From positions 1,612,001 through 1,676,000 of the forward strand of contig NC_015389.1 of NCBI RefSeq assembly GCF_000195315.1: a stretch of 64,000 bases of DNA. Reading direction: 5' to 3'. Shown here piece after piece: positions 48,176-60,041 of this stretch (the stretch's first letter is position 1; every line of letters starts with the position of its first letter). The DNA comes from Coriobacterium glomerans PW2. GTDB lineage: Bacteria; Actinomycetota; Coriobacteriia; Coriobacteriales; Coriobacteriaceae. Below the pieces are notes generated by a model, which saw nothing but the letters and a program-made list of their open reading frames with translations, did no database searches and was not told the DNA's origin. The position numbers and the translations under genes were made by a program.

Positions 48176-48544
48176 GGGGGCGACTGGTTTCGACGCGATA
48201 GCTCTGAGAGAGGAAGCAGGCCGTGGTCTCCTCGCCACGTTAAACAGGGGTACCGTCAAATTGAATTGACAACAACAAGTCTTTCGAGCCTTCACTGGCT
48301 CTCGCTGCTTAGTTAAACTGACAGCGCGTCAATCGAGGGAGTTCCCCGCCCCTCGTGCGGCGTCATCTTAGGGGAATGCGTCTGAGCACGTAGCCGGTAT
48401 GGCTCAGACTAAGATCGAACCGACTAGGAACCCGAGGGCGCGTCGCCGCGCGCAAGGGAACCGAATCTCAACCGGCGACTGAGCCTGGAGATGCCGATCA
48501 GGGAGCTTTCGTGGACCGGAGTTCGATTCTCCGCGCCTCCACCA
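48176..48544 (+). ncRNA. ssrA: transfer-messenger RNA (tmRNA)
   Basis: Rescues stalled ribosomes and tags proteins for proteolysis. The tRNA-like ends pair (GGGGGCG at 48176-48182 with CGCCTCC at 48534-48540), with T arm CCGGAGTTCGATTCTCCG and encoded CCA. The reading frame ends CTGGCTCTCGCTGCTTAG, giving a tag of about DNNKSFEPSLALAA (resume codon probably the GAC). Pseudoknot-rich region follows. A TAGAAT at about 48109 is a possible -10. A terminator lies just after. A partial second copy sits 181 bp downstream. Confidence 0.95.
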
Positions 48545-48553
48545 GACAATACA

Positions 48554-48596
48554 AGCCCTTTTTTCCTGTTATCGCAGGTAAAAAGGGCTTTTTATT
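48554..48596 (+). terminator. terminator of ssrA
   Basis: Stem AGCCCTTTTT...AAAAAGGGCT with an inner CCTG/CAGG pair, followed by TTTTATTT; 10 bp past the tmRNA 3' end. Confidence 0.88.
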
Positions 48597-48724
48597 TCGT
48601 CGTTCTTCTTGCATTTCGTTATTGTCTTGGTAACCCGATGGCGGCGAAGGAGGTTTTGGCAACGGATTCGAGGGCCAAAGGCACATGCCACGTTCAGCGC
48701 ATGAGGGGAGGAGGCCAAAAAAAA

Positions 48725-48965
48725 AGGCCGTGGTCTCCTCGCCAAGCCAAACGAATGTATGGTCAAATTGAATTGACAACAACAGGTCTTTCGAGCCTCA
48801 ACTGGCTCTCGCTACTTAGTTAAACTGACAGCGCGTCAATCGAGGGAGTTCCCCGCCCCTCGTGCGGCGTCATCTTAGGGGAATGCGTCTGAGCACGTAG
48901 CCGGTATGGCTCAGACTAAGATCGAACCGACTAGGAACCCGAGGGCGCGTCGCCGCGCGCAAGGG
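48725..48965 (+). pseudogene. partial second copy of tmRNA (no tRNA-like ends)
   Basis: 241 nt matching 48218-48458 of ssrA without gaps and with 13 substitutions, all in its first 93 nt; the last 148 nt (stop codon and pseudoknots) are identical. It lacks both arms of the tRNA-like domain, so it could not be alanylated. The tag frame now reads DNNRSFEPQLALAT, ending AT instead of AA. Most likely a remnant left by recombination or integration at ssrA. Confidence 0.9.
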
Positions 48966-48995
48966 CATATGGTCACTTCTGTGGCGCTTTTGCTC

Positions 48996-49085
48996 TATAA
49001 TTCGAGGCGCTGCGGAGCCCAAGGTCCGCAGCATCGAGAAAGGTGGTACCTCAGTAAGTCGCTGTCGCCCCGTGTTCTTGATGAA
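48996..49085 (+). other. T-box-like leader fragment
   Basis: Directly after the tmRNA copy come TATAAT (48996-49001), a hairpin GCTGCGGA/TCCGCAGC (49009-49032) and AAAGGTGGTACC (49039-49050), close to the T-box consensus AGGGTGGNACC, then CGCCCCG. No aminoacyl-tRNA synthetase or amino-acid gene follows, and no stem I was seen, so it would be a remnant if it is a T-box at all. Confidence 0.35.
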
Positions 49086-49363
49086 CACCCTGCGGAATTC
49101 GAAGCGGCGAAGCGCTTCCACTTGCCCATGCGCGTCCCTATGCGCTGCGATATGTACATTGCGTTTGTCAAAACCTGTCCGATTAGATGTAAAAAATGAT
49201 ACAGACTATCGAATGAGCTGTTATCATCCGCTGCCCAAAAGGTGCTGGCGAAATCTGAATTAATCTGCGGCACTGGAAGGGCATGTCGAAATGGTTTGCC
49301 GATGCGAGCATGCAAACTATCTGTTTGTAGCTAAAACAAAGAGCCCCCGATAGTTTTGGCAAC

Positions 49364-49639
49364 ATGCAAATTGAGGGCTTTCATCTATTCCAGAAACGTC
49401 TTGGCCGCCATCTTCAGGCTTTTCGCAAGGCAAACCACTATTCGCAAGAGCGGGTCGGGGAGCTCCTCGGCATGGACAGAGTTTCCATTGGCTATATCGA
49501 GCAGGGTAAACGCGCTCCGAAGCTCAGCACGCTGTATGCGCTGACCTCACTTTACGGCATAACGTTATCAGAGTTGTTCGCCTTCGAGCAGGCGGATACC
49601 GGTCCGGAGATACCTGATAGTCAAGATTCGATCTGCTAG
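49364..49639 (+). CDS. small XRE/Cro-type HTH regulator
   Basis: A 91-residue DNA-binding protein. The helix-turn-helix spans residues about 28-66: YSQERVGELLGMDRVSIGYIEQGKRAPKLSTLYALTSLYGI. No other domain. No clear Shine-Dalgarno precedes the ATG. Flanking sequence is AT-richer than the genome, and it stands between the tmRNA fragment and surface-protein genes, so it may belong to an accessory segment. Target unknown. Confidence 0.75.
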   Translation: MQIEGFHLFQKRLGRHLQAFRKANHYSQERVGELLGMDRVSIGYIEQGKRAPKLSTLYALTSLYGITLSELFAFEQADTGPEIPDSQDSIC

Positions 49640-50040
49640 ACCGTCCCGTTGACTGCAAACCGCATTTATGCGGAGTGCGACGCTAATGGACAACATGTCT
49701 TCGGCTGCTCGCGGACGGACGCATCGCTGCAAGCCCTTTTGCTGTTATACGACGCGGGCAGGTCTCGAAAATCGCCTTCAGCTCGCACCCAAGCTAGTGG
49801 GGAGACCGTCGTACTGCTCAAGCCGCTTCACGCGGCAGTTGCCTCAATAACAAATAGTTGGATCAAGAGAGACTGGCAATTGAGCAGCTCGTCTTAGAAG
49901 CGCTTGGCATATCCAGAGCGGGCTAAAAGAGCTGGCGACGCAACAACCGCAACCCTCGCACCTTCAGCACCTGCAGACCCAGATTCATAAGATTGCATTG
50001 AGCCTCACCCTTCCATCCGCCATATAAACCATATATAATT
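49640..50040. other. intergenic region, no gene seen
   Basis: 400 bp between the XRE gene and the end of the membrane-protein gene. Short frames lack ribosome sites. The last 40 bp is AT-only (ATATATAATTTTAATTATCT) and may serve as a bidirectional terminator. Confidence 0.45.
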
Positions 50041-51138
50041 TTAATTATCTAATATACCCCAAGGATCAATTTGTCCATTAGCAGTACGCCATGAACCGTC
50101 CGACCACTGATATGTGGTTGAACTACTGCCATCCTCATAAAAATGTGTTTTCCACTTACCAGTAGGGCGAGGACCGCTGCTGGGCTTGGACCCGCCGCCA
50201 CCTCCAGCAGGCTTGCCAGCACCGCCACCAGCAGGCTGACCGCCACCGGTACCGCCACCAGCCTTGGGTTGCGCAGCCCCGCCACTGTTATTTGAATTTG
50301 CAGCAGCCTTGCGCGCCGCCTCGTCCTCGGCAGCCTTCTTTGCAGCATCAGCCTTGGCCTGGGTCACCGCATCGATACGAGCCTGGAAACGGGTAACCTG
50401 ATCCTGCGCTGACTTCACAAGCTTTTCGTTGCTGGAACCGGGCATGCTCCAAAACTTCTTGGCAACCTCGTCCTTCTGAACGGTCTCAAGCACGCTGTTC
50501 AGAGCGCCCAGACGCTGGTTCAAATCGTCAAGATTGTCCGTACCGTCCACGTTGAAGTTGGCCTGCTCGTCAACCGCATCCTGCCATTTCTTGATCTGCA
50601 CGTCCTGAACATTCTTGATCCGCTTGCTGTACTCGGTCTCAAGCTTGCCCCAGTCCTGATCCGTACCGTCAGCGTACTTCAGATTGTTGTCGTTGGAATC
50701 CTTCTTGACCTGATCCAGTGACTTCTGATACCCATCGATCCGCTCGATCATATGATCCAGATCAAGGTCGGCCAGATTCACCTGATCCAGATGCTTGGCG
50801 GGGTCCAGCTTGCTGTAGGCCTGCTCGACCTCCTGATTGTGCTTGCTGGCCTGCTCGCGGTAGCTGTTTCCGTACACAGCCCCGGCACCGCATGCAAGAA
50901 CCGCCACAATCAGAGCGGTTGCTATAACCGCCTTGCGCTTCTTGGGATTCTTGCCCTTGTTGTTACCATTCTCGCTTTGAACGATAGGAACGCTCTCGGA
51001 GTCCACCATGCTTTGCGCATGCTCCCCTACGCTTTCGCTTCCCATATGATCCGGCTGGGGCTCAAGAGGACTCAGCCCAGCATCGGGAGTGCTCCCCGCC
51101 CTGCTGCCGCTCAGATTGTCAGCTTTTCTGCCATTCAT
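50041..51138 (-). CDS. membrane-anchored coiled-coil protein with Gly/Pro-rich stalk
   Basis: A 365-residue protein. A polar cytoplasmic N-terminus (about 65 residues) leads to one transmembrane segment (KRKAVIATALIVAVLACGAGAVYG), then a long charged helical, probably coiled-coil region (about 90-275), a GGGTGGGQPAGGGAGKPAGG low-complexity stalk, and a C-terminal small domain KWKTHFYEDGSSSTTYQWSDGSWRTANG. No sorting signal; topology would put the C-terminus outside. ATG at 51138 follows AGAGGCG. No family recognised; similar layouts occur in bifidobacteria. Confidence 0.7.
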   Translation of the reverse strand: MNGRKADNLSGSRAGSTPDAGLSPLEPQPDHMGSESVGEHAQSMVDSESVPIVQSENGNNKGKNPKKRKAVIATALIVAVLACGAGAVYGNSYREQASKHNQEVEQAYSKLDPAKHLDQVNLADLDLDHMIERIDGYQKSLDQVKKDSNDNNLKYADGTDQDWGKLETEYSKRIKNVQDVQIKKWQDAVDEQANFNVDGTDNLDDLNQRLGALNSVLETVQKDEVAKKFWSMPGSSNEKLVKSAQDQVTRFQARIDAVTQAKADAAKKAAEDEAARKAAANSNNSGGAAQPKAGGGTGGGQPAGGGAGKPAGGGGGSKPSSGPRPTGKWKTHFYEDGSSSTTYQWSDGSWRTANGQIDPWGILDN

Positions 51139-51542
51139 TTTAATCGCCTCTACATTCTTCATGTCGCATTTTCGGCTGGTATCAATCGGCTGGGCTTAAG
51201 CGAGCTCAAGGATGTCCTTCAACCGAAGCGCTATAGATCTGGTCGATTCAACCGATCAGCTGGTCTCACAATGGTCTCAAAGAGCACGCGACCGCCCAGA
51301 ATCCGGCGTCGTCCAAATATGATGCTCGGCAAAAAAAGACCCTTATCAAGAGAGCTGATGCGGTGCCGGCATCCCATCGGGTTTTCTGTAAAAGAGGGGC
51401 GGGATCGCCGATCACGTTGCTGGCGGGGAGCCTCAGCACACGTGCTCTGAGGCTCCCGATATCGCTGCCGCGACATGGTCCATGGTGATCTCTGCCGCCT
51501 GCTCATCACTTCACGTTCATTCTGCATCGACAGCCCATCAAG
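51139..51542. other. intergenic region with a hairpin
   Basis: About 400 bp between two envelope-protein genes. 51426-51457 forms an 11-bp stem (GGGAGCCTCAG) extendable by AGCAC/GTGCT with a small bulge; no T run on either strand. It may end the transcript of the upstream InlB-like gene. No gene was recognised. Confidence 0.5.
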
Positions 51543-53006
51543 CTACGAGTTGCGACGGCAGATATATCCGCCTGCTGCAAAGACAGAACCGAGACCAGCG
51601 AGCGCTCCCGCTATAGCAGGAGAGTTGCCATCACCTGTCCCCGGGATGGGCCCTTCTTCCGTGGTGTCGTTCTGCACCTGGTCGGGATTGTTATTCTGCG
51701 AATCGTCGGACTTGCTGTTATCGTCGTTTGTCGTGCCGCCGCCTGCACCATCGCCGGAATCGTCGTTGCCGCCATTGGGCGCCTTCACAACAACCCAAAA
51801 CATCGAGGTCACATCCGACAGATCTGATATCTGCAGGGACGCTATATTATTAGTAATGGGTTTTCGCTCTGAGGTAACAGTTCCATCCATATGGATGCTG
51901 AACACGTCGAAAGCATTTGCTCCTTTGTACTCATCAAGCGTAATAGCGCAACTAAGCTTAAAAGACCCAAACCCGTTATGAATCTCCTTGCCATTCACAA
52001 AAAGTTTAGGGCTGATAGAACAGAGGCATCCATCGGTAAAATTGAACGGAAGCTTATCATACTCACTAGCTGAGGGGATGGGGCAATTCAGAACGATTTT
52101 TGCACCATCGGGGACGTTGGGGCCATGCAGAATGCCATCAACTTGAAGTATTTCCGCACTTCCAAATAAAATATTTACATTTGTATTTGCTCCTTTGAGG
52201 CGCCATGAGGTTAGCAGATGCACGTCTTTATCAATGGGAGTGTCCTTGGTGTACTGATGCCCGTATTGATCGAACCATCCGTTGAAGATGTACTTCGGAT
52301 TGCCGGGATGAGGCATTCCCGGCTCCATCATCACACTGGACTTCGAATTTATCCCAAGCGTAAAGAAATCGCCGCACTCATGTTGATTGTCAAGTGCCTC
52401 TTTCATGGTTTTGCCAGAAAGGATGCTGATGGGGGTGACCTCATATGGATCAGGATCACCGCGAAGATCAGAACTAAAAGGCACATAAGGATTGAAAAGT
52501 ACATTCATATATACTTTATGCTGATCAAACGCATAGACAGCGCTCAGCTTCAAATCACCGCTGACGGGTTTTTTGAAATCGTACAGATCCTTGGTGATGT
52601 CTGACGCCTCAGCGAACTCGGTCTGATCGCCGATGCGCCATCCGACGAAATCAAAATGATGGTCGTTGTAGTACGGCTTGTTTGCATCATCAAAGATTCC
52701 GGATTCCTTGTACCCCGGGTCGGCGACCGCTTGGCCGTCGGGTACGTGGACCTCCTTCAATGTCGTTGAGTCTTGGCCGACGATGAAGATGACTGTGTGG
52801 GTTGACGCATTTTCAGGCGTCGAGATCGCGTCGGGGTCATTCTTTTGTTCCGGGGAACTGTTCTGTTCGTCTGCCGCAAGCGGATTCTGCCCCGCATCGT
52901 CATCTGCATACGCCATGTTGGCCGCACGAACGGATGCGCCGACGCCGAGCAGGAGGAACATCGTTGCCCCGACCAGCAGACGCCCTCGCAATCTTCTCAA
53001 GTTCAC
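51543..53006 (-). CDS. cell-surface protein with InlB-type repeats and sortase-like anchor
   Basis: A 487-residue secreted protein. Signal peptide: VNLRRLRGRLLVGATMFLLLGVGASVRAANMAYA, cleaved near residue 35. An acidic Gln/Asn-rich stretch follows, then at least two Listeria-Bacteroides (InlB B) type repeats (HTVIFIVGQDSTTLKEVHVPDGQAV...HFDFVGWR; KYIFNGWFDQYGHQYTKDTPIDKDVHLLTSW), a spacer rich in Asp/Asn, and a C-terminal anchor: IPGTGD, hydrophobic segment, CRRNS. The anchor motif is non-canonical. GTG at 53006 chosen with AAAGGGG. Lower GC than neighbours, suggesting acquisition. Confidence 0.8.
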   Translation of the reverse strand: MNLRRLRGRLLVGATMFLLLGVGASVRAANMAYADDDAGQNPLAADEQNSSPEQKNDPDAISTPENASTHTVIFIVGQDSTTLKEVHVPDGQAVADPGYKESGIFDDANKPYYNDHHFDFVGWRIGDQTEFAEASDITKDLYDFKKPVSGDLKLSAVYAFDQHKVYMNVLFNPYVPFSSDLRGDPDPYEVTPISILSGKTMKEALDNQHECGDFFTLGINSKSSVMMEPGMPHPGNPKYIFNGWFDQYGHQYTKDTPIDKDVHLLTSWRLKGANTNVNILFGSAEILQVDGILHGPNVPDGAKIVLNCPIPSASEYDKLPFNFTDGCLCSISPKLFVNGKEIHNGFGSFKLSCAITLDEYKGANAFDVFSIHMDGTVTSERKPITNNIASLQISDLSDVTSMFWVVVKAPNGGNDDSGDGAGGGTTNDDNSKSDDSQNNNPDQVQNDTTEEGPIPGTGDGNSPAIAGALAGLGSVFAAGGYICRRNS

Positions 53007-53459
53007 AGGATCCCCTTTCATCGGATATGAAAACAAACAGTTTGCATTTTAATGTGTTGTACTATAGATGTAAACTTTTAGTTTGATATTGTTACAAAGG
53101 CTGCTGGTGAGGAGGCGGCGGAATCTACAAGTATGCCAGCGCCTTGAGAACACACCGCAAGACCTTCATGCTCGCGTGCAGGTCCCCGTGCATCAGTCTG
53201 TCTGATCCATTGTTTGGCATTGCTTTTCTAATTGCCGCTTGAGCAGATCTTTGCAACGATGCGACGCATCCTTTGATATCGAGAGCCGCGCAGGGGAAGA
53301 TGGAGGATCCGCTCATCACGCAAAGCCACGCTCTGCACGGGTAGAAAGCCCTGTGTTGAGCGAATCGGCTCCGACATCGACGATGCCGGATGCCGCGCGG
53401 CGCGGATGCGGTGCGCATGATTCGAGCTCAACGACCCGCAACGAGTGAAAGGACGCGCT
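53007..53459. other. intergenic region, AT-rich promoter zone of the surface gene
   Basis: The first 90 bp is AT-rich with the palindrome CAAACTGTTTG (about 53033-53045) and AAACTAAAAGTTT (about 53075), possible regulator sites upstream of the InlB-like gene. The remainder to the ferritin-like gene is GC-rich, no gene seen. Confidence 0.45.
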
Positions 53460-54698
53460 ATGAACCCATTCGAGCTGGAACGGAGAGCCGACAAAGACAC
53501 ACTTCTGTTCACCTGGAAGGATCTCGCAGTCAAACCCTATAACAAGGCGGAGGTCGATCCATACACCAAGTGCCGCATCATCCTCATGAACGGCATCGAG
53601 GTCGAAGCCGTCATGTTCGGGCATAACTTCAACAGAAACTGCCCGGACAACGATCTGAGGCGCGAGATCGCTCTCACACGGGCCTTGGAGCAGTCTCAGC
53701 AGAAACGCGTGAACTGGCTGTCGCCCTCCGATGAGACCCCATTGGAACTCACGATCGGCTATGAGCAACTGGCCGTCGACCTGACCGCGTGGCTGGCGAT
53801 CCACGAACCCGACTCATATGCCAAGTCGTGCATGGACTTCGCGCTCCTGGAGGACTTCGACCACCTCTATCGCTACTCCAACCTGATGAAGCTCAACGAG
53901 AACATCCCCGCGGAGTCCCTGGTCATGGCCACCATCGAGATCACCCCGGGAAGACCGACCATCTCCCATCACAGGCACCCCTTCGACGCCGTCCGCAAGC
54001 CGGGAGACGTGAAGAAACACGACATCCGGACCACGCTCGGCGCGCTCATCCTGACGGCCGGCGAGCAGCAGACGATGAACTTCTACATGAACATCGGCAA
54101 CCAGATGGAAGAGGGCCCCGGACGCGATCTGTATCAGGAGATCGCCATGGTCGAAGAGGACCATGTGACCCATTATGGCGATCTGCTCGATCCGAAAGGC
54201 ACATGGCTCGAGAACATGCTCTTGCGCGAGTACATGGAGACCTATGTTTACTATTCGTTCCTCGAGACGGAGACCGATCCTGCGGTCAAGAAGATCTGGG
54301 AGCGCCATTTCGACCAGGAGGTCGCGCACCTGCACAAGGCGGCAGATCTGCTCAAGAGCTATGAGGGAACGGAGTGGAGCCAGATGATCCCGGACGGAAA
54401 GTACCCCGATCTGCTCGATCTGCATCCTCAGAAGGACTACGTCCGCTCGATTCTCGCCGAGCAGGTCGAGCTCACCGCGCAGGAGGAGAAGTTCGTCGAT
54501 GTGAATGAGCTGCCCGATGACTACCGCTTCTTCGCTTGGAACAAGCATGTCAACGGGAATGCGGAGGATGTGCCCAGTCATGTCGTCATACAGAAGATGC
54601 AAGGCGTCGACGGCAGGGACTATCGCTTCGAGGACAAGGAAAGCCCAGTTCCTGAGCTTCGCGACCGCTCCGAGGACAACACCGAGCTCGGGCGGTAG
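53460..54698 (+). CDS. ferritin-like (diiron carboxylate) protein
   Basis: A 412-residue soluble protein. The central part looks like a four-helix ferritin-like bundle with repeated acidic and His residues: MDFALLEDFDHLYRYSNLM, LYQEIAMVEEDHVTHYGDLL, and YMETYVYYSFLETETDPAVKKIWERHFDQEVAHLHKAADLLKSYEG (ExxH-type spacing as in rubrerythrins). The N-terminal about 100 residues are without a match. ATG at 53460 with GAAAGGA. Oxidative-stress or iron handling is plausible. Single gene with a strong terminator. Confidence 0.68.
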   Translation: MNPFELERRADKDTLLFTWKDLAVKPYNKAEVDPYTKCRIILMNGIEVEAVMFGHNFNRNCPDNDLRREIALTRALEQSQQKRVNWLSPSDETPLELTIGYEQLAVDLTAWLAIHEPDSYAKSCMDFALLEDFDHLYRYSNLMKLNENIPAESLVMATIEITPGRPTISHHRHPFDAVRKPGDVKKHDIRTTLGALILTAGEQQTMNFYMNIGNQMEEGPGRDLYQEIAMVEEDHVTHYGDLLDPKGTWLENMLLREYMETYVYYSFLETETDPAVKKIWERHFDQEVAHLHKAADLLKSYEGTEWSQMIPDGKYPDLLDLHPQKDYVRSILAEQVELTAQEEKFVDVNELPDDYRFFAWNKHVNGNAEDVPSHVVIQKMQGVDGRDYRFEDKESPVPELRDRSEDNTELGR

Positions 54699-54722
54699 CG
54701 CCGCACGATCTTAGGAAGCGGC

Positions 54723-54757
54723 AAGGGGATGGCGATCATCGCGTCGCCATCCCCTTT
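54723..54757 (+). terminator. terminator of the ferritin-like gene
   Basis: 13-bp perfect stem AAGGGGATGGCGA/TCGCCATCCCCTT with an 8-nt loop, ending in TTTTTC. Confidence 0.88.
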
Positions 54758-54851
54758 TTCTCACCCAATCCCGCATCATGCTGCGGAGCAGAAGCTGATA
54801 CCGCCGCCCGCCTACGGTTTCATCCTCGGGTCGGCAGCATTTCTCGGATGT

Positions 54852-54862
54852 CCCCCCCCCCC
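54852..54862. repeat. C11 homopolymer tract
   Basis: Eleven consecutive C in the intergenic region between two convergent genes. Long G/C homopolymers are prone to slippage, but no start codon or promoter is near. Confidence 0.9.
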
Positions 54863-55009
54863 ATCGGCTCGGCTCAAAGCCAAGACAGCAAGGAGTCCCC
54901 TGAGACTCCGAGGGGAGCCGATCATCGCGTTTATGCTCAGAGCGTGCGAGCTGTGCTGTGCCCGCAGCCCGCTCAAGAGATCAGCGACCTTCGAGTGAAG
55001 CTGCGCAAA

Positions 55010-55036
55010 GGGCCCCGGGCGCGATGCCCGGGGCCC
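55010..55036 (-). terminator. terminator of the repeat surface protein gene
   Basis: Perfect 11-bp stem GGGCCCCGGGC/GCCCGGGGCCC with 5-nt loop, followed by TTTGC on the minus strand. Confidence 0.65.
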
Positions 55037-55058
55037 TCGAAGAGCACTGCCGCGTGTC

Positions 55059-58000
55059 TCAGCGCTCGGTGCGCCGACGGAAAGCCGCCGCCAGACCGAT
55101 CGCGCCCGCTCCCGCCGCCAAGGCGATGAAGGACGAGAAGCCTGCGATGTCACCGGTCGAGGCCAGGCTGCCGCGAGCGCCTCTCGAGCCATTCCGCCCG
55201 GAACCGCTGCTCGGGCCGCGACCGTCGCGGGTGCCGCTGTTCGCCCCGTTGCCGTTGCCGCCGTTGCTGTTTCCACCGTGGTCGCCGCCACCGTTGTTGT
55301 TCCCACCGTGATCGTCGCCGCCATGGTCGTCGCCGCCGCCGGTCGGACGGATGTCCGCGGTGGTCTTGAAAGTGCCCTTGCCGTCAGCCAGAATGTAGTT
55401 CTTCGCCACCGGCCCGTTCTCGACGAGGTCGGCGGTCACGATCACCGACTTTCCCGTGCCGGCTTCAGCGTCGTCGAACAGAGCGGTCGCGGTGTAGTCC
55501 TGAGGAGTGGCGAGCGCTTCGCCGTCGATGAGGCCCTTGAACTCAACCGAATCCAGAGTCGCATCGCGCTTGCCGTCCCAGTCCTTGGATGCCACGGTCG
55601 CCGAGGAGATCTCGATGGGTTTGCGATCGATGGTCAGCTTCGTTTCAAGCGGCCCTGTCGGCGCATAGGCGATGTAGGCCGTATCGTCCCGTGCGATGCC
55701 GACCGTCGCCTCCGTCGAGTAGGTGCCGGCGTCCTTCGGCAAGCCGTCCGCCCAGTCGCCGTCCCCCGCGCGATAGCGGAACCTCGCACTCGCCACGAGA
55801 CCGTCGAAGCCCGGGATCCCCTGGTCGCCGTCGCTCAGGGCGAACAGTCCGACATCGGGTGCCGCGCCGTCGTAGACCTTCTCGAGTTCGGTCTTGCCCG
55901 ACAGGCCGTAGGTCTTGAGACGGTAGATCCTGATGGGGTAGGTGCCCTTCGTCGCGCCCTCGACGTTGTCCAGGGCGACGTAGCCCTGATCCGGCGCCCA
56001 CTCGTAGGCGCGGCCCGTGTCGGTGCCCGGAAGCTCGGCGGCTGCGCCCTTGCCGTAGATGCCGCCGGTGATCGAGATCGCGTCGGAGTCGATGGCCTTG
56101 GATCCCTCGCCGGGGACGGCCAAGATGGAACCGCCGGAGATGGAGACCTTGCCTGTCGAGTTGGCCCGGGCCCGACTGCCGATTCCGGGTGCCTTCGCTC
56201 CTCCGGTCCCGGTGACGACGCCGCTCTTGATCACGATCACCGCGCCGAAGCCGCCTGCTCCGCTACCGATGCCGGAGCCACCGGCTCCGCCGGTCGCGAT
56301 GATCTGACCACCTGTGACGGTGATCGAGCCGCCGGTCGATTCGGATCCGCCGCCGATACCCGGCTGCTGGTCGGAACCGGTGGCTGTCACCTTCGTCTGA
56401 TCGAGCACGATCGCGCCGACCGAGTCGGCCGGCTCGGTGGCGCCGCCGCCGATGCCCGCGCCGGACCCGCCGGTCGCGGTGATGTCGCCGCCGGTGATGT
56501 GAATGGTGCCCTTGCCGCCGCGCTCTCCGCCGCCGATGCCCGCACCGTAGCCGGAAACGGAGACGACGGTGCTGTTGGTTATCTGGATGTCGCCTGCCGG
56601 ACTGTAGGCGCCTCCGCCGATCCCGGCGCTCGACGTCGCGCCCTTCGATGTCACGTCTGAGTTGGAGATGGTGATCTTGCCGTCGGCGGATCCGCCGGAG
56701 CTGCAGCAGATCCCGCCTCCGCCGTTCTCATCGCCGACCGCGATGATCTTGCCACCTGTGATCGAGATCACGGCGCTCGCCTTGTTGTCCACCAGACTGG
56801 GCATGAGACCTATGGCAGCCCCCGACCCCGAGCCCTTTGCGCTCACCTGCGCGTCATCGAGCGTGATCGACGACGTATCGTCGAAACCGGTGCTTCCGGC
56901 ACCGATGCCGCAGGCTCCGTTGATGGCCGTAGCGCGGACCGTCGCGCCCTTGATGAGTATCGTTCCGGCTCCGCCATCGTATCCGCCACCGATTCCAGCG
57001 GCACCGCTCATCGACGTCGCCGTGACGTCTCCGCCGGTGATGCTCACGTTGCCCTTGTTGCCGCTTGACCATCCACCGACACCTGCACCGTTGTATCCCG
57101 AGGCCACGATGGTGCTCTTCGAGATGGTGATGTCAACGTTGCCGGTGCCGCCGTAGCCGTCCCCGATGCCGGAGCCCGCGTTGGAATCCGCATGCACGGT
57201 CGCATTCGAGATGGTTATGATCGCGTGCGAATCTCCGGTGCCGGTGCCGATGCCCGCCCCGGAGACGCCTGTGGCGGTGACGTCGCTGTCAGAGATGGTG
57301 ATATCGGTGTCGCCGGTGCTGTCGAGTCCGGCACCGATCCCCGCGCCGCGCCCCGCCTTGGCATGTACCGTGCCCCCGGTGATCCTGATCTTGCCCTGCG
57401 GGGAGCGGGTCGCCGATCCGATGCCGGCCGAGCTGCTGCCCTGGGCGGTCACGTCACCGCCCGAGATGGTGATTTCTCCGCCCGATGAGCTCTGATAGGC
57501 GGCACCGATACCGGCAGCCGAGCTATTGGACGTCGCCTTCACCGTCCCGCCCGAGATGGTGATCGTACCGACGGCACCGCTGTTCATGTCGCCGATCGCC
57601 GCCGCATGCTGACTGGTGGCGGTCACGTTGCCGCCGGTGATGGTGATGGCTCCCTTGGTCGCGGCGGTCCAGCCGCCCAAGGCCGAGTTGTATCCGTTCG
57701 CGACGACGGTTCCTCCCGAGATCGTGATGCGCCCGTCGCCGGAGTTGCCGCTCAGATTGCCGATTGCCGCGCCCCTTCCTCCGGTGACGTTGAGCGTGCC
57801 ACCTGAGATGGAGATCGCTCCCGTAGACGTAGCGTTGCCGCCGCCGATACCGGCTCCGCCCGGAGCGGTGACGGTGAGCGTCCCCGTGGATGCCTTCGTA
57901 ACGTTGAGCGTGGAGCCATTCGGCACGAGCACGGGAGTCTCGGACCCCGGGCCCGTGATCGAGCTTGTGCCCTTGAGGGTCAGATCGAGAACCCCAGTTG

Positions 58001-58364
58001 ACATTCCGATGGCGAGCACTTTGGAGTAGCCGGCATACGAGATCTTGACGCTGTCGAGCGTGATCGCCGCATGCGCGCCATCGGCGACGGCGATGCCGTC
58101 TTCTGTGGCGGTGTCTTTGCCCGCAGCCATGGAGATCGTGACGTTGGCGCCGTTCTGCACTCTGACGATATTGGTGTCTTCTTGACCGGCAAGGGTCTCA
58201 TATGTCCAATCAACCCCCTTTGTGCCTCCGGTCACCTCAAAGGCGCCGGCAGTCTCGGCCCACGCCTGTTTGGGGGATAGCATGAGAGCAGCCATAAAGC
58301 CCACGAGCAGAGCGAATGCTATCAAGGCCGATCTGTCATACCTTCTATCAGCGGTTCTGACCAT
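55059..58364 (-). CDS. large repeat-containing cell-surface protein with sortase-like anchor
   Basis: A 1101-residue exported protein. Signal peptide: ALIAFALLVGFMAALMLSPKQAWA (cleaved after about residue 36). Residues about 160-770 hold some 21 glycine-rich repeats of 27-33 residues with core GDVTATGGSGAGIGGG...GTITISGG, likely a beta-helix or solenoid. Then come a YDG/Ig-like part (LSGKTELEKVYDGAAPDVGLF, KLTIDRKPIEISSATV), a His/Gly/Asn-rich linker (GGDDHGGDDHGGNNNGG), and LASTGD, hydrophobic stretch, RRRTER. ATG 58364 with AAGGAC. Probably an adhesin or scaffold. Confidence 0.82.
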   Translation of the reverse strand: MVRTADRRYDRSALIAFALLVGFMAALMLSPKQAWAETAGAFEVTGGTKGVDWTYETLAGQEDTNIVRVQNGANVTISMAAGKDTATEDGIAVADGAHAAITLDSVKISYAGYSKVLAIGMSTGVLDLTLKGTSSITGPGSETPVLVPNGSTLNVTKASTGTLTVTAPGGAGIGGGNATSTGAISISGGTLNVTGGRGAAIGNLSGNSGDGRITISGGTVVANGYNSALGGWTAATKGAITITGGNVTATSQHAAAIGDMNSGAVGTITISGGTVKATSNSSAAGIGAAYQSSSGGEITISGGDVTAQGSSSAGIGSATRSPQGKIRITGGTVHAKAGRGAGIGAGLDSTGDTDITISDSDVTATGVSGAGIGTGTGDSHAIITISNATVHADSNAGSGIGDGYGGTGNVDITISKSTIVASGYNGAGVGGWSSGNKGNVSITGGDVTATSMSGAAGIGGGYDGGAGTILIKGATVRATAINGACGIGAGSTGFDDTSSITLDDAQVSAKGSGSGAAIGLMPSLVDNKASAVISITGGKIIAVGDENGGGGICCSSGGSADGKITISNSDVTSKGATSSAGIGGGAYSPAGDIQITNSTVVSVSGYGAGIGGGERGGKGTIHITGGDITATGGSGAGIGGGATEPADSVGAIVLDQTKVTATGSDQQPGIGGGSESTGGSITVTGGQIIATGGAGGSGIGSGAGGFGAVIVIKSGVVTGTGGAKAPGIGSRARANSTGKVSISGGSILAVPGEGSKAIDSDAISITGGIYGKGAAAELPGTDTGRAYEWAPDQGYVALDNVEGATKGTYPIRIYRLKTYGLSGKTELEKVYDGAAPDVGLFALSDGDQGIPGFDGLVASARFRYRAGDGDWADGLPKDAGTYSTEATVGIARDDTAYIAYAPTGPLETKLTIDRKPIEISSATVASKDWDGKRDATLDSVEFKGLIDGEALATPQDYTATALFDDAEAGTGKSVIVTADLVENGPVAKNYILADGKGTFKTTADIRPTGGGDDHGGDDHGGNNNGGGDHGGNSNGGNGNGANSGTRDGRGPSSGSGRNGSRGARGSLASTGDIAGFSSFIALAAGAGAIGLAAAFRRRTER
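56063..57884 (-). repeat. about 21 tandem glycine-rich protein repeats
   Basis: DNA region encoding successive units of 27-33 residues, each with AGIGGG-like and ITISGG-like blocks. Units are diverged, not identical, which argues for an old expansion rather than recent slippage. Confidence 0.82.
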
Positions 58365-58433
58365 AGTGAACCGTCCTTCCGTGCGCGGACTCGCAATCGG
58401 CCGCATAGCGATCGTACAGACGCCATGGTTCAT

Positions 58434-58781
58434 ACCCCGCTTTAGATGAGTTGAGGAGCGGATTCCCGATATTCTTTTTATGGACTAGATCTCTATATAA
58501 TGCACCCTCCAGAAATCTGTCGCGCTAGACGAGGGAGGCGGACGATTCGGTGCGCTTGGAGCCCATCGCGTCAAAGCGTGACAGATCTCAGTGATCTCAT
58601 AGGTGCGAGTGCAAACGGGCGCCCCCGCCCAGTGGCGAAGGCGCGCCCGTGCGCATCCGAAGCGAGGTGCACCGGGCGTCCTGCCTGCGCGCCGCGCCGT
58701 TCATGCTCTTGCGATTGCAATCCGTCGGCGCGACGTGATCACTGCCGATGGCAGAGCGAACCCGCGCTGACCGGTCGCGCT
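58434..58781. other. intergenic region with ADH terminator
   Basis: About 350 bp. 58615-58650 folds into an 8-bp stem ACGGGCGC/GCGCCCGT ending in TTTGC on the minus strand, a probable terminator of the downstream-facing ADH gene. Nothing else recognised. Confidence 0.5.
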
Positions 58782-59843
58782 CTACTCCTCGATCCTGACG
58801 ACCGGCTTGATGAGATCGGCCGGCTTGTCGCGCATGAGGAACAGCGCCTCCTCGAGATGATCCCATCCCTCGAAGATATGGGAGATGAGCGGATGCACAT
58901 CCAGCCGCCCGCGCGCGACGAGGGCGCCGAGCTTCTCCATGCGCAGGCGACCGCCGGGCATGAGCCCGCCGATGATCTCCTTGTGGCCCATCCCGACGCC
59001 CCATTCGACACGAGGGATCGTCACGAACTCTCCGGATCCCAAATAGTTCACGTTGCCGATCTTTCCGCCGGGCCTGACGCATTTGACGGCCTCCTCGAAT
59101 GTGGTGCCGTCCCCGCCGGCGACGAGCACCTTGTCGACGGGTACGCCTCCGGTCAGCTCGAGCACCTGCTCGGCGATGGGACCGTTCTTGTAGGAGATGA
59201 AATCGTCTGCACCGTAGCGACGCGCAACCTCCACGGTGACCGGCCGGTTGCCGACCGCGATGATATGAGCGGCTCCGCGCATCGCTGCTCCGGCGACGCT
59301 CATGAGGCCGACCGGGCCGATGCCAATGACGAGCACGACATCGCCGAACTCCACATCGGCGAGCTCGGCTGCGTGAAAACCGGTCGGCACCATATCCGAG
59401 AGCATGCACGCATCGACCGGGTCGATGTTCTCGGGCAGATGCGCCAGATTGCCATCGGCATCGTTGACATGGTAGAACTCCGAGAATACACCGTCTTTGA
59501 AGTTGGAGAACTTCCAGCCGCCGAGCATGCCGCCCGAGTGCATCGCGAATCCCGCCTGCGCCGCCAGCGAGCTCCAGTCAGGTGTGATGGCGGGCACGAG
59601 CACCCGATCGCCGGGCTTGAAATCCGCGACCTCCTCGCCGATCTCTGCGATCTCACCGCAGGACTCATGGCCCAGGATCATGTTGTGGCGCTCGCCGATC
59701 GCGCCCTCCCACAGCGTGTGCACATCCGATGTGCAGATAGCGACCGCCAGGGGCTTGACGATCGCGTCTCTCGGCCCGCAGGCGGGAACGTCCTTCTCGA
59801 TCCAGCCGGACTCGCCGATCTTGAGCATCGCGTAACCTCTCAT
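58782..59843 (-). CDS. adh: zinc-dependent secondary alcohol (isopropanol) dehydrogenase
   Basis: NADP-dependent medium-chain dehydrogenase of 353 residues, closely like the Clostridium beijerinckii isopropanol dehydrogenase: MRGYAMLKIGESGWIEKDVP, CTSDVHTLWEGAIGERHNMILGHE (catalytic zinc Cys, His, Glu), FKPGDRVLVPAITPDW, GWKFSNFKDGVFSEFYHVNDAD, and cofactor loop VLVIGIGPVGLM. Like that enzyme it lacks the structural-zinc Cys cluster. ATG 59843 with GAGAGGAG. Single gene, likely disposing of reducing equivalents during fermentation. Confidence 0.93.
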   Translation of the reverse strand: MRGYAMLKIGESGWIEKDVPACGPRDAIVKPLAVAICTSDVHTLWEGAIGERHNMILGHESCGEIAEIGEEVADFKPGDRVLVPAITPDWSSLAAQAGFAMHSGGMLGGWKFSNFKDGVFSEFYHVNDADGNLAHLPENIDPVDACMLSDMVPTGFHAAELADVEFGDVVLVIGIGPVGLMSVAGAAMRGAAHIIAVGNRPVTVEVARRYGADDFISYKNGPIAEQVLELTGGVPVDKVLVAGGDGTTFEEAVKCVRPGGKIGNVNYLGSGEFVTIPRVEWGVGMGHKEIIGGLMPGGRLRMEKLGALVARGRLDVHPLISHIFEGWDHLEEALFLMRDKPADLIKPVVRIEE

Positions 59844-60041
59844 GAGGTCTCCTCTCAGCGTGGGAATATCGTATCGTCGCATCCTTTGCGGACAAAACCC
59901 GCGACAACCTCAGTCTACCCGTGCACGGCTCATCATCCGGTCCGTCACACGATGCGGTTAAATTCTTCGATCGCGCGCCATGAGGTGTCGAGCGGGGCCG
60001 GCGTGCTGATTGCACGCGCACAGGCGAGCTGCCCCCCCCAC

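Follow-up and report, generated by a model that had tools for sequence, protein, structure and literature searches.

Surveys of tmRNA genes have rejected as pseudogenes those sequences that lack one gene end, and the fragments that they record have been attributed to the integration of genomic islands (PMC4131195). In Dehalococcoides, many direct repeats of 19–20 bp of ssrA are located at the boundaries of genomic islands, where they represent remnants of attachment sites and are accompanied by integration genes (PMC2764846). Additionally, the mycobacteriophage DS6A carries a tmRNA that consists of the tRNA-like domain (TLD) only (PMC4131195).

The present locus, which lies in a window of 64 kb (the whole stretch of DNA that was analysed, positions 1612001–1676000 of the genome), contains a second, partial ssrA sequence just downstream of the intact gene. 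We regard this copy, with a probability of about 0.8, as a non-functional internal fragment of ssrA, i.e., a pseudogene fragment, whose lack of function is deduced from its sequence.

The intact ssrA gene

The ssrA gene of the window is complete according to both ARAGORN and Rfam (369 nt in the numbering used here) and matches RF00023 with 142.3 bits over the full model (positions 1–374). It is followed by an intrinsic terminator that is predicted to be strong (Table 1). The tag peptide that ARAGORN assigns to the gene is wrong; the frame conserved in the family, which reads GAC AAC AAC and onwards, gives DNNKSFEPSLALAA before the stop and agrees with the tags of translated relatives, e.g., DKNSSYEPQLALAA. 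Translation of the tag may resume one codon before position 48268.

Table 1. Coordinates of the features at the ssrA locus, in positions of the window
Feature	Position	Strand	Remarks
Intact one-piece ssrA (tmRNA)	48176..48544	+	ARAGORN; Rfam RF00023
Tag frame of the intact gene, DNNKSFEPSLALAA and stop	48268..48312	+	Family-conserved frame, ending ALAA and stop in translated relatives
Expanded ssrA–gatB interval	48545..60041	.	About 0.3 kb in L072, about 1.4 kb in L119
Intrinsic terminator of ssrA (predicted)	48553..48590 (about)	+	Fold −22.5 kcal/mol, z −6.4
Partial ssrA copy	48725..48965	+	nt 43–283 of the gene, without acceptor, T-arm and tRNA-like domain
PK1 3' strand, destroyed in the copy	48745..48761	+	9 substitutions in 17 nt
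Tag frame in the copy, DNNRSFEPQLALAT and stop	48775..48819	+	Family-conserved frame
Tract identical to ssrA (putative gene conversion)	48815..48965	+	151 nt (nt 133–283)
Small XRE-type HTH regulator gene	49364..49639	+	Pfam HTH_3; 400 nt past the copy

Extent and uniqueness of the partial copy

The repeat search yielded a direct repeat pair of 241 nt, 48218–48458 and 48725–48965, with a start-to-start distance of 507 nt, and blastn of ssrA against its own locus returned nt 43–283 of the gene with 94.6% identity at an E value of about 1e-107. The alignment is ungapped and in the same orientation, with 13 mismatches, and the gap from the end of ssrA to the copy is 180 nt. Since nt 1–42 and 284–369 are missing, both halves of the tRNA-like domain are absent from the copy. 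The flanks of the copy align with these missing ends no better than shuffled sequence does, and no flanking microhomology that would point to a duplication mechanism was found. The 5' border of the copy coincides with a palindromic junction, GGCC-A9-GGCC (48713–48729), which may be the mark of a breakpoint.

No further ssrA matches besides the copy were found in the whole genome, a single contig of 2,115,681 bases. With contig breaks set aside, two matches for the copied segment were obtained in one of the 67 family genomes, namely the present one, and a partial ssrA copy occurred in none of the 66 others; the pattern of the copy was likewise absent from the genome contigs of other species. 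A sister species of the genus, sought through the neighbouring patatin gene, was not found, and the relatives identified by sequence are species of Enorma and Collinsella. The initial annotation had described a full-length, terminated ssrA accompanied by an extra 241-nt segment of its interior without the tRNA-like ends, and had proposed a comparison across related genomes; the description proved exact in coordinates and length, and the comparison places the copy in this genome only.

Two other candidates for duplication were rejected. An apparent second duplicate in G021 consists of a contig break inside ssrA with an exact 77-bp overlap; this record was assembled from a metagenome, so that strain variation offers a simpler explanation. 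In G322, two full tmRNA matches lie on one contig; both of its ends seem to carry the same genes, in reverse order, which suggests that the contig is chimeric.

Mismatch pattern of the copy

By position in ssrA, nine of the 13 mismatches fall in nt 63–79, one at nt 103, two at nt 117–118 and one at nt 132, with none in nt 43–62 or nt 133–283. At the nine positions in PK1, the ssrA base is kept by 58–73 of the 73 related ssrA sequences, and in the copy the pairing of the second stem (as tested) is reduced from 4 to 2 of 5 pairs and that of the first from 5 to 4. The chance probability of this cluster is about 5e-4 even with all mismatches confined to nt 43–132; as the nine changes stay clustered, one multi-nucleotide event is likely. 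No source of the PK1 patch was found elsewhere in the genome at up to three mismatches. A/N-specific mutagenesis, as in diversity-generating retroelements, was considered for the changes in the copy and rejected, the substitution types being mixed.

The last tag codon is GCT (Ala) in ssrA and ACT (Thr) in the copy, the first base of this codon being G in all 73 relatives; consequently, the tag of the copy ends in LALAT before the stop, in place of the ALAA of the translated relatives. At nt 117–118, the copy reads CA (codon CAA, Gln), where the intact gene has TCA (Ser). This Gln state is nearest to that of the relatives that read EPQLALAA, with EPQLALA in the copy and EPSLALAA in the intact gene. 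The tag frame, stop and pseudoknots had all been reported to be repeated in the copy; the tag stop codon and PK2–PK4 are indeed identical in sequence to those of the functional gene, whereas PK1 is broken and the last tag Ala has become Thr.

Across nt 133–283, related ssrA genes differ at 29% of positions on average, and if this tract had diverged as much as the other parts of the copy apart from PK1, zero differences in 151 nt would be expected with a probability of about 2e-4. Since the copy has the EPQLAL of the family and the intact gene the derived PSL, the duplication would be older than that change; most simply, the copy split from the gene before PQL changed to PSL. The identity of nt 133–283 despite this older split suggests a later conversion of the copy by the intact gene, which would probably explain the tract. 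The initial annotation had invoked a mechanism other than the usual insertion at ssrA, either recombination within the gene or an element that brings a tmRNA body of its own; the former, as gene conversion, fits the mismatch pattern.

Function of the copy

The tRNA-like domain is needed for the charging of tmRNA and for SmpB binding. The copy contains none of its parts (5' and 3' ends, T-arm, CCA) and would thus be neither charged nor engaged by SmpB in the known way; in addition, PK1 is changed at 9 of 17 nt. No match to RF00023 above the gathering score was found on the copy, and the only match of tmRNA type that reaches it, to RF04321 (permuted tmRNA), scores 28.2 bits against a cut-off of 47 and is built on the 3' end of the intact gene. 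Recognisable ssrA sequence that is devoid of essential parts and lies beside an intact gene has the make-up of an ssrA pseudogene or fragment.

The interval between ssrA and gatB

The DNA 3' of ssrA is a variable, often rearranged place in the family. In the relative L072, the gene order is patatin, ssrA, gatB, gatA, and the order is the same in L119; here, the ssrA–gatB interval extends over 11.5 kb, with the copy at its start. The first 5 kb of the interval (48.5–53.5 kb) are mostly 51–56% GC, compared with about 63% in the genes upstream of ssrA. Among the 66 other family genomes, no relatives were found for the XRE regulator (at E 1e-10) or for a 417-aa protein of the interval (at the threshold used). 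The segment 49000–49110 displays a TATAAT-like box, an 8-bp hairpin and a AAAGGTGGTACC motif that resembles a T-box antiterminator; a T-box remnant at 49010–49110, suggested by this motif, was rejected for want of Rfam support.

L068, L070, L071 and L075 have ssrA at its site between the patatin gene and gatB in the orientation opposite to that of L072, L119 and the window, with the flanking gene order kept; such flipping may be due to T-arm repeats in inverted orientation or to site-specific recombinases. Relatives of genus g3 carry tandem units of ~200–210 bp directly 3' of ssrA (L014:1921–2382, L028:1853–2208, L023:1850–2115). At the start of most of these units stands the ssrA T-arm in inverted orientation (CGCGGAGAATCGAACTC), and those of L023 and L028 reproduce the final 20 nt of the gene together with its terminator; the units could belong to a family of small palindromic repeats or be what remains of att sites.

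Integration at tRNA and tmRNA genes usually relies on tyrosine integrases. In viral contigs that match the ssrA of the family, Collinsella-like ones among them, a large serine recombinase gene runs into the ssrA 3' end (L078, L079, L080), which indicates that prophages use the ssrA site in the family. No relative of this ssrA-adjacent recombinase was found in the window or the genome, no integrase is present among the main ORFs of 49.4–54.7 kb, and a search of the 64-kb window for further sequence of the ssrA 3' end gave nothing beyond chance matches, also at 53–54 kb, where the initial annotation had proposed to look for an att repeat. Both the distal 3'-end repeat and the integrase beside ssrA that belong to an att duplicate of an integrated island are therefore lacking, and the copy, which covers the gene interior, is not an att scar, in agreement with the initial annotation. 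Copy-like DNA gave no match in phage, plasmid and viral collections either, and the body of the copy is the species' own ssrA; the notion of an element with its own tmRNA body is thus not supported.

Origin of the copy

The fragment might instead have arrived in foreign DNA, with a mobile element or transformed DNA that expanded the ssrA–gatB interval and contained part of the ssrA of a sister strain or sister species. The reduced GC content, the absence of family relatives for the XRE and 417-aa proteins, the serine-recombinase prophages at ssrA and the tag state of the copy, which is older than that of the intact gene, would agree with such an origin. We nevertheless consider it unlikely, given that nt 133–283, though strongly variable between genera, match the species' own ssrA exactly, that neither an integrase nor an att repeat occurs in or near the interval, and that no similar sequence is found in phages, plasmids or other species.

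It is very improbable that the copy gives rise to a functional RNA without a TLD, be it a transcribed decoy, regulator or tmRNA competitor, or acts as a silent cassette that provides ssrA with tag or pseudoknot variants by gene conversion. Its PK2–PK4 and tag stop are those of a working gene; however, the 180 nt that separate ssrA from the copy have no promoter-like site on the + strand, the terminator would block read-through from ssrA, PK1 is broken, no relative conserves the copy, and neither charging nor SmpB binding could proceed through the missing TLD. An assembly artefact, with the copy absent from the chromosome, is hardly credible, since the two sequences differ at 13 clustered and biologically interpretable positions in a genome of one 2.1 Mb contig that is 99% complete; the flanks of the copy are also unique on both sides, even if repeats are classic places of misassembly and the present sequence is one assembly of the species.

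For the preferred reading, a non-functional internal fragment derived from the adjacent gene, we propose the following order of events. Either part of the native ssrA of the species or the entire gene, with both ends of the duplicate being lost later, would have been duplicated just 3' of the gene into unstable DNA, at a time when the tag of the intact gene still read PQL and not yet PSL. No longer under selection, the copy would then have lost PK1 and changed the end of its tag, after which the intact gene would probably have overwritten nt 133–283 by gene conversion. Gene conversion alone leaves the nine changes in 17 nt unexplained, and the multi-nucleotide event is an extra assumption.

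Comparison with known systems

ssrA fragments need not be att scars, as an internal copy can also result from local duplication with subsequent decay and gene conversion, and such copies can mislead both annotation and short-read assembly at ssrA. The present copy adds to the indications that a rearrangement hotspot adjoins ssrA in Coriobacteriaceae. Like the pseudogenes and fragments of the tmRNA surveys, it is a duplicate tmRNA sequence judged to be non-functional; unlike them, it has lost both ends, keeps the mRNA-like interior and adjoins the intact gene without att-type boundaries (PMC4131195). As in the Dehalococcoides islands, a plastic region right after ssrA contains additional sequence of the gene, whereas the repeated sequence here is 241 nt of gene interior without an integrase (PMC2764846). 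The DS6A tmRNA is also partial, but it keeps the TLD that the present copy lacks (PMC4131195). The copy is best read as an ordinary pseudogene fragment of ssrA in DNA prone to rearrangement, comparable in general kind to the known cases.
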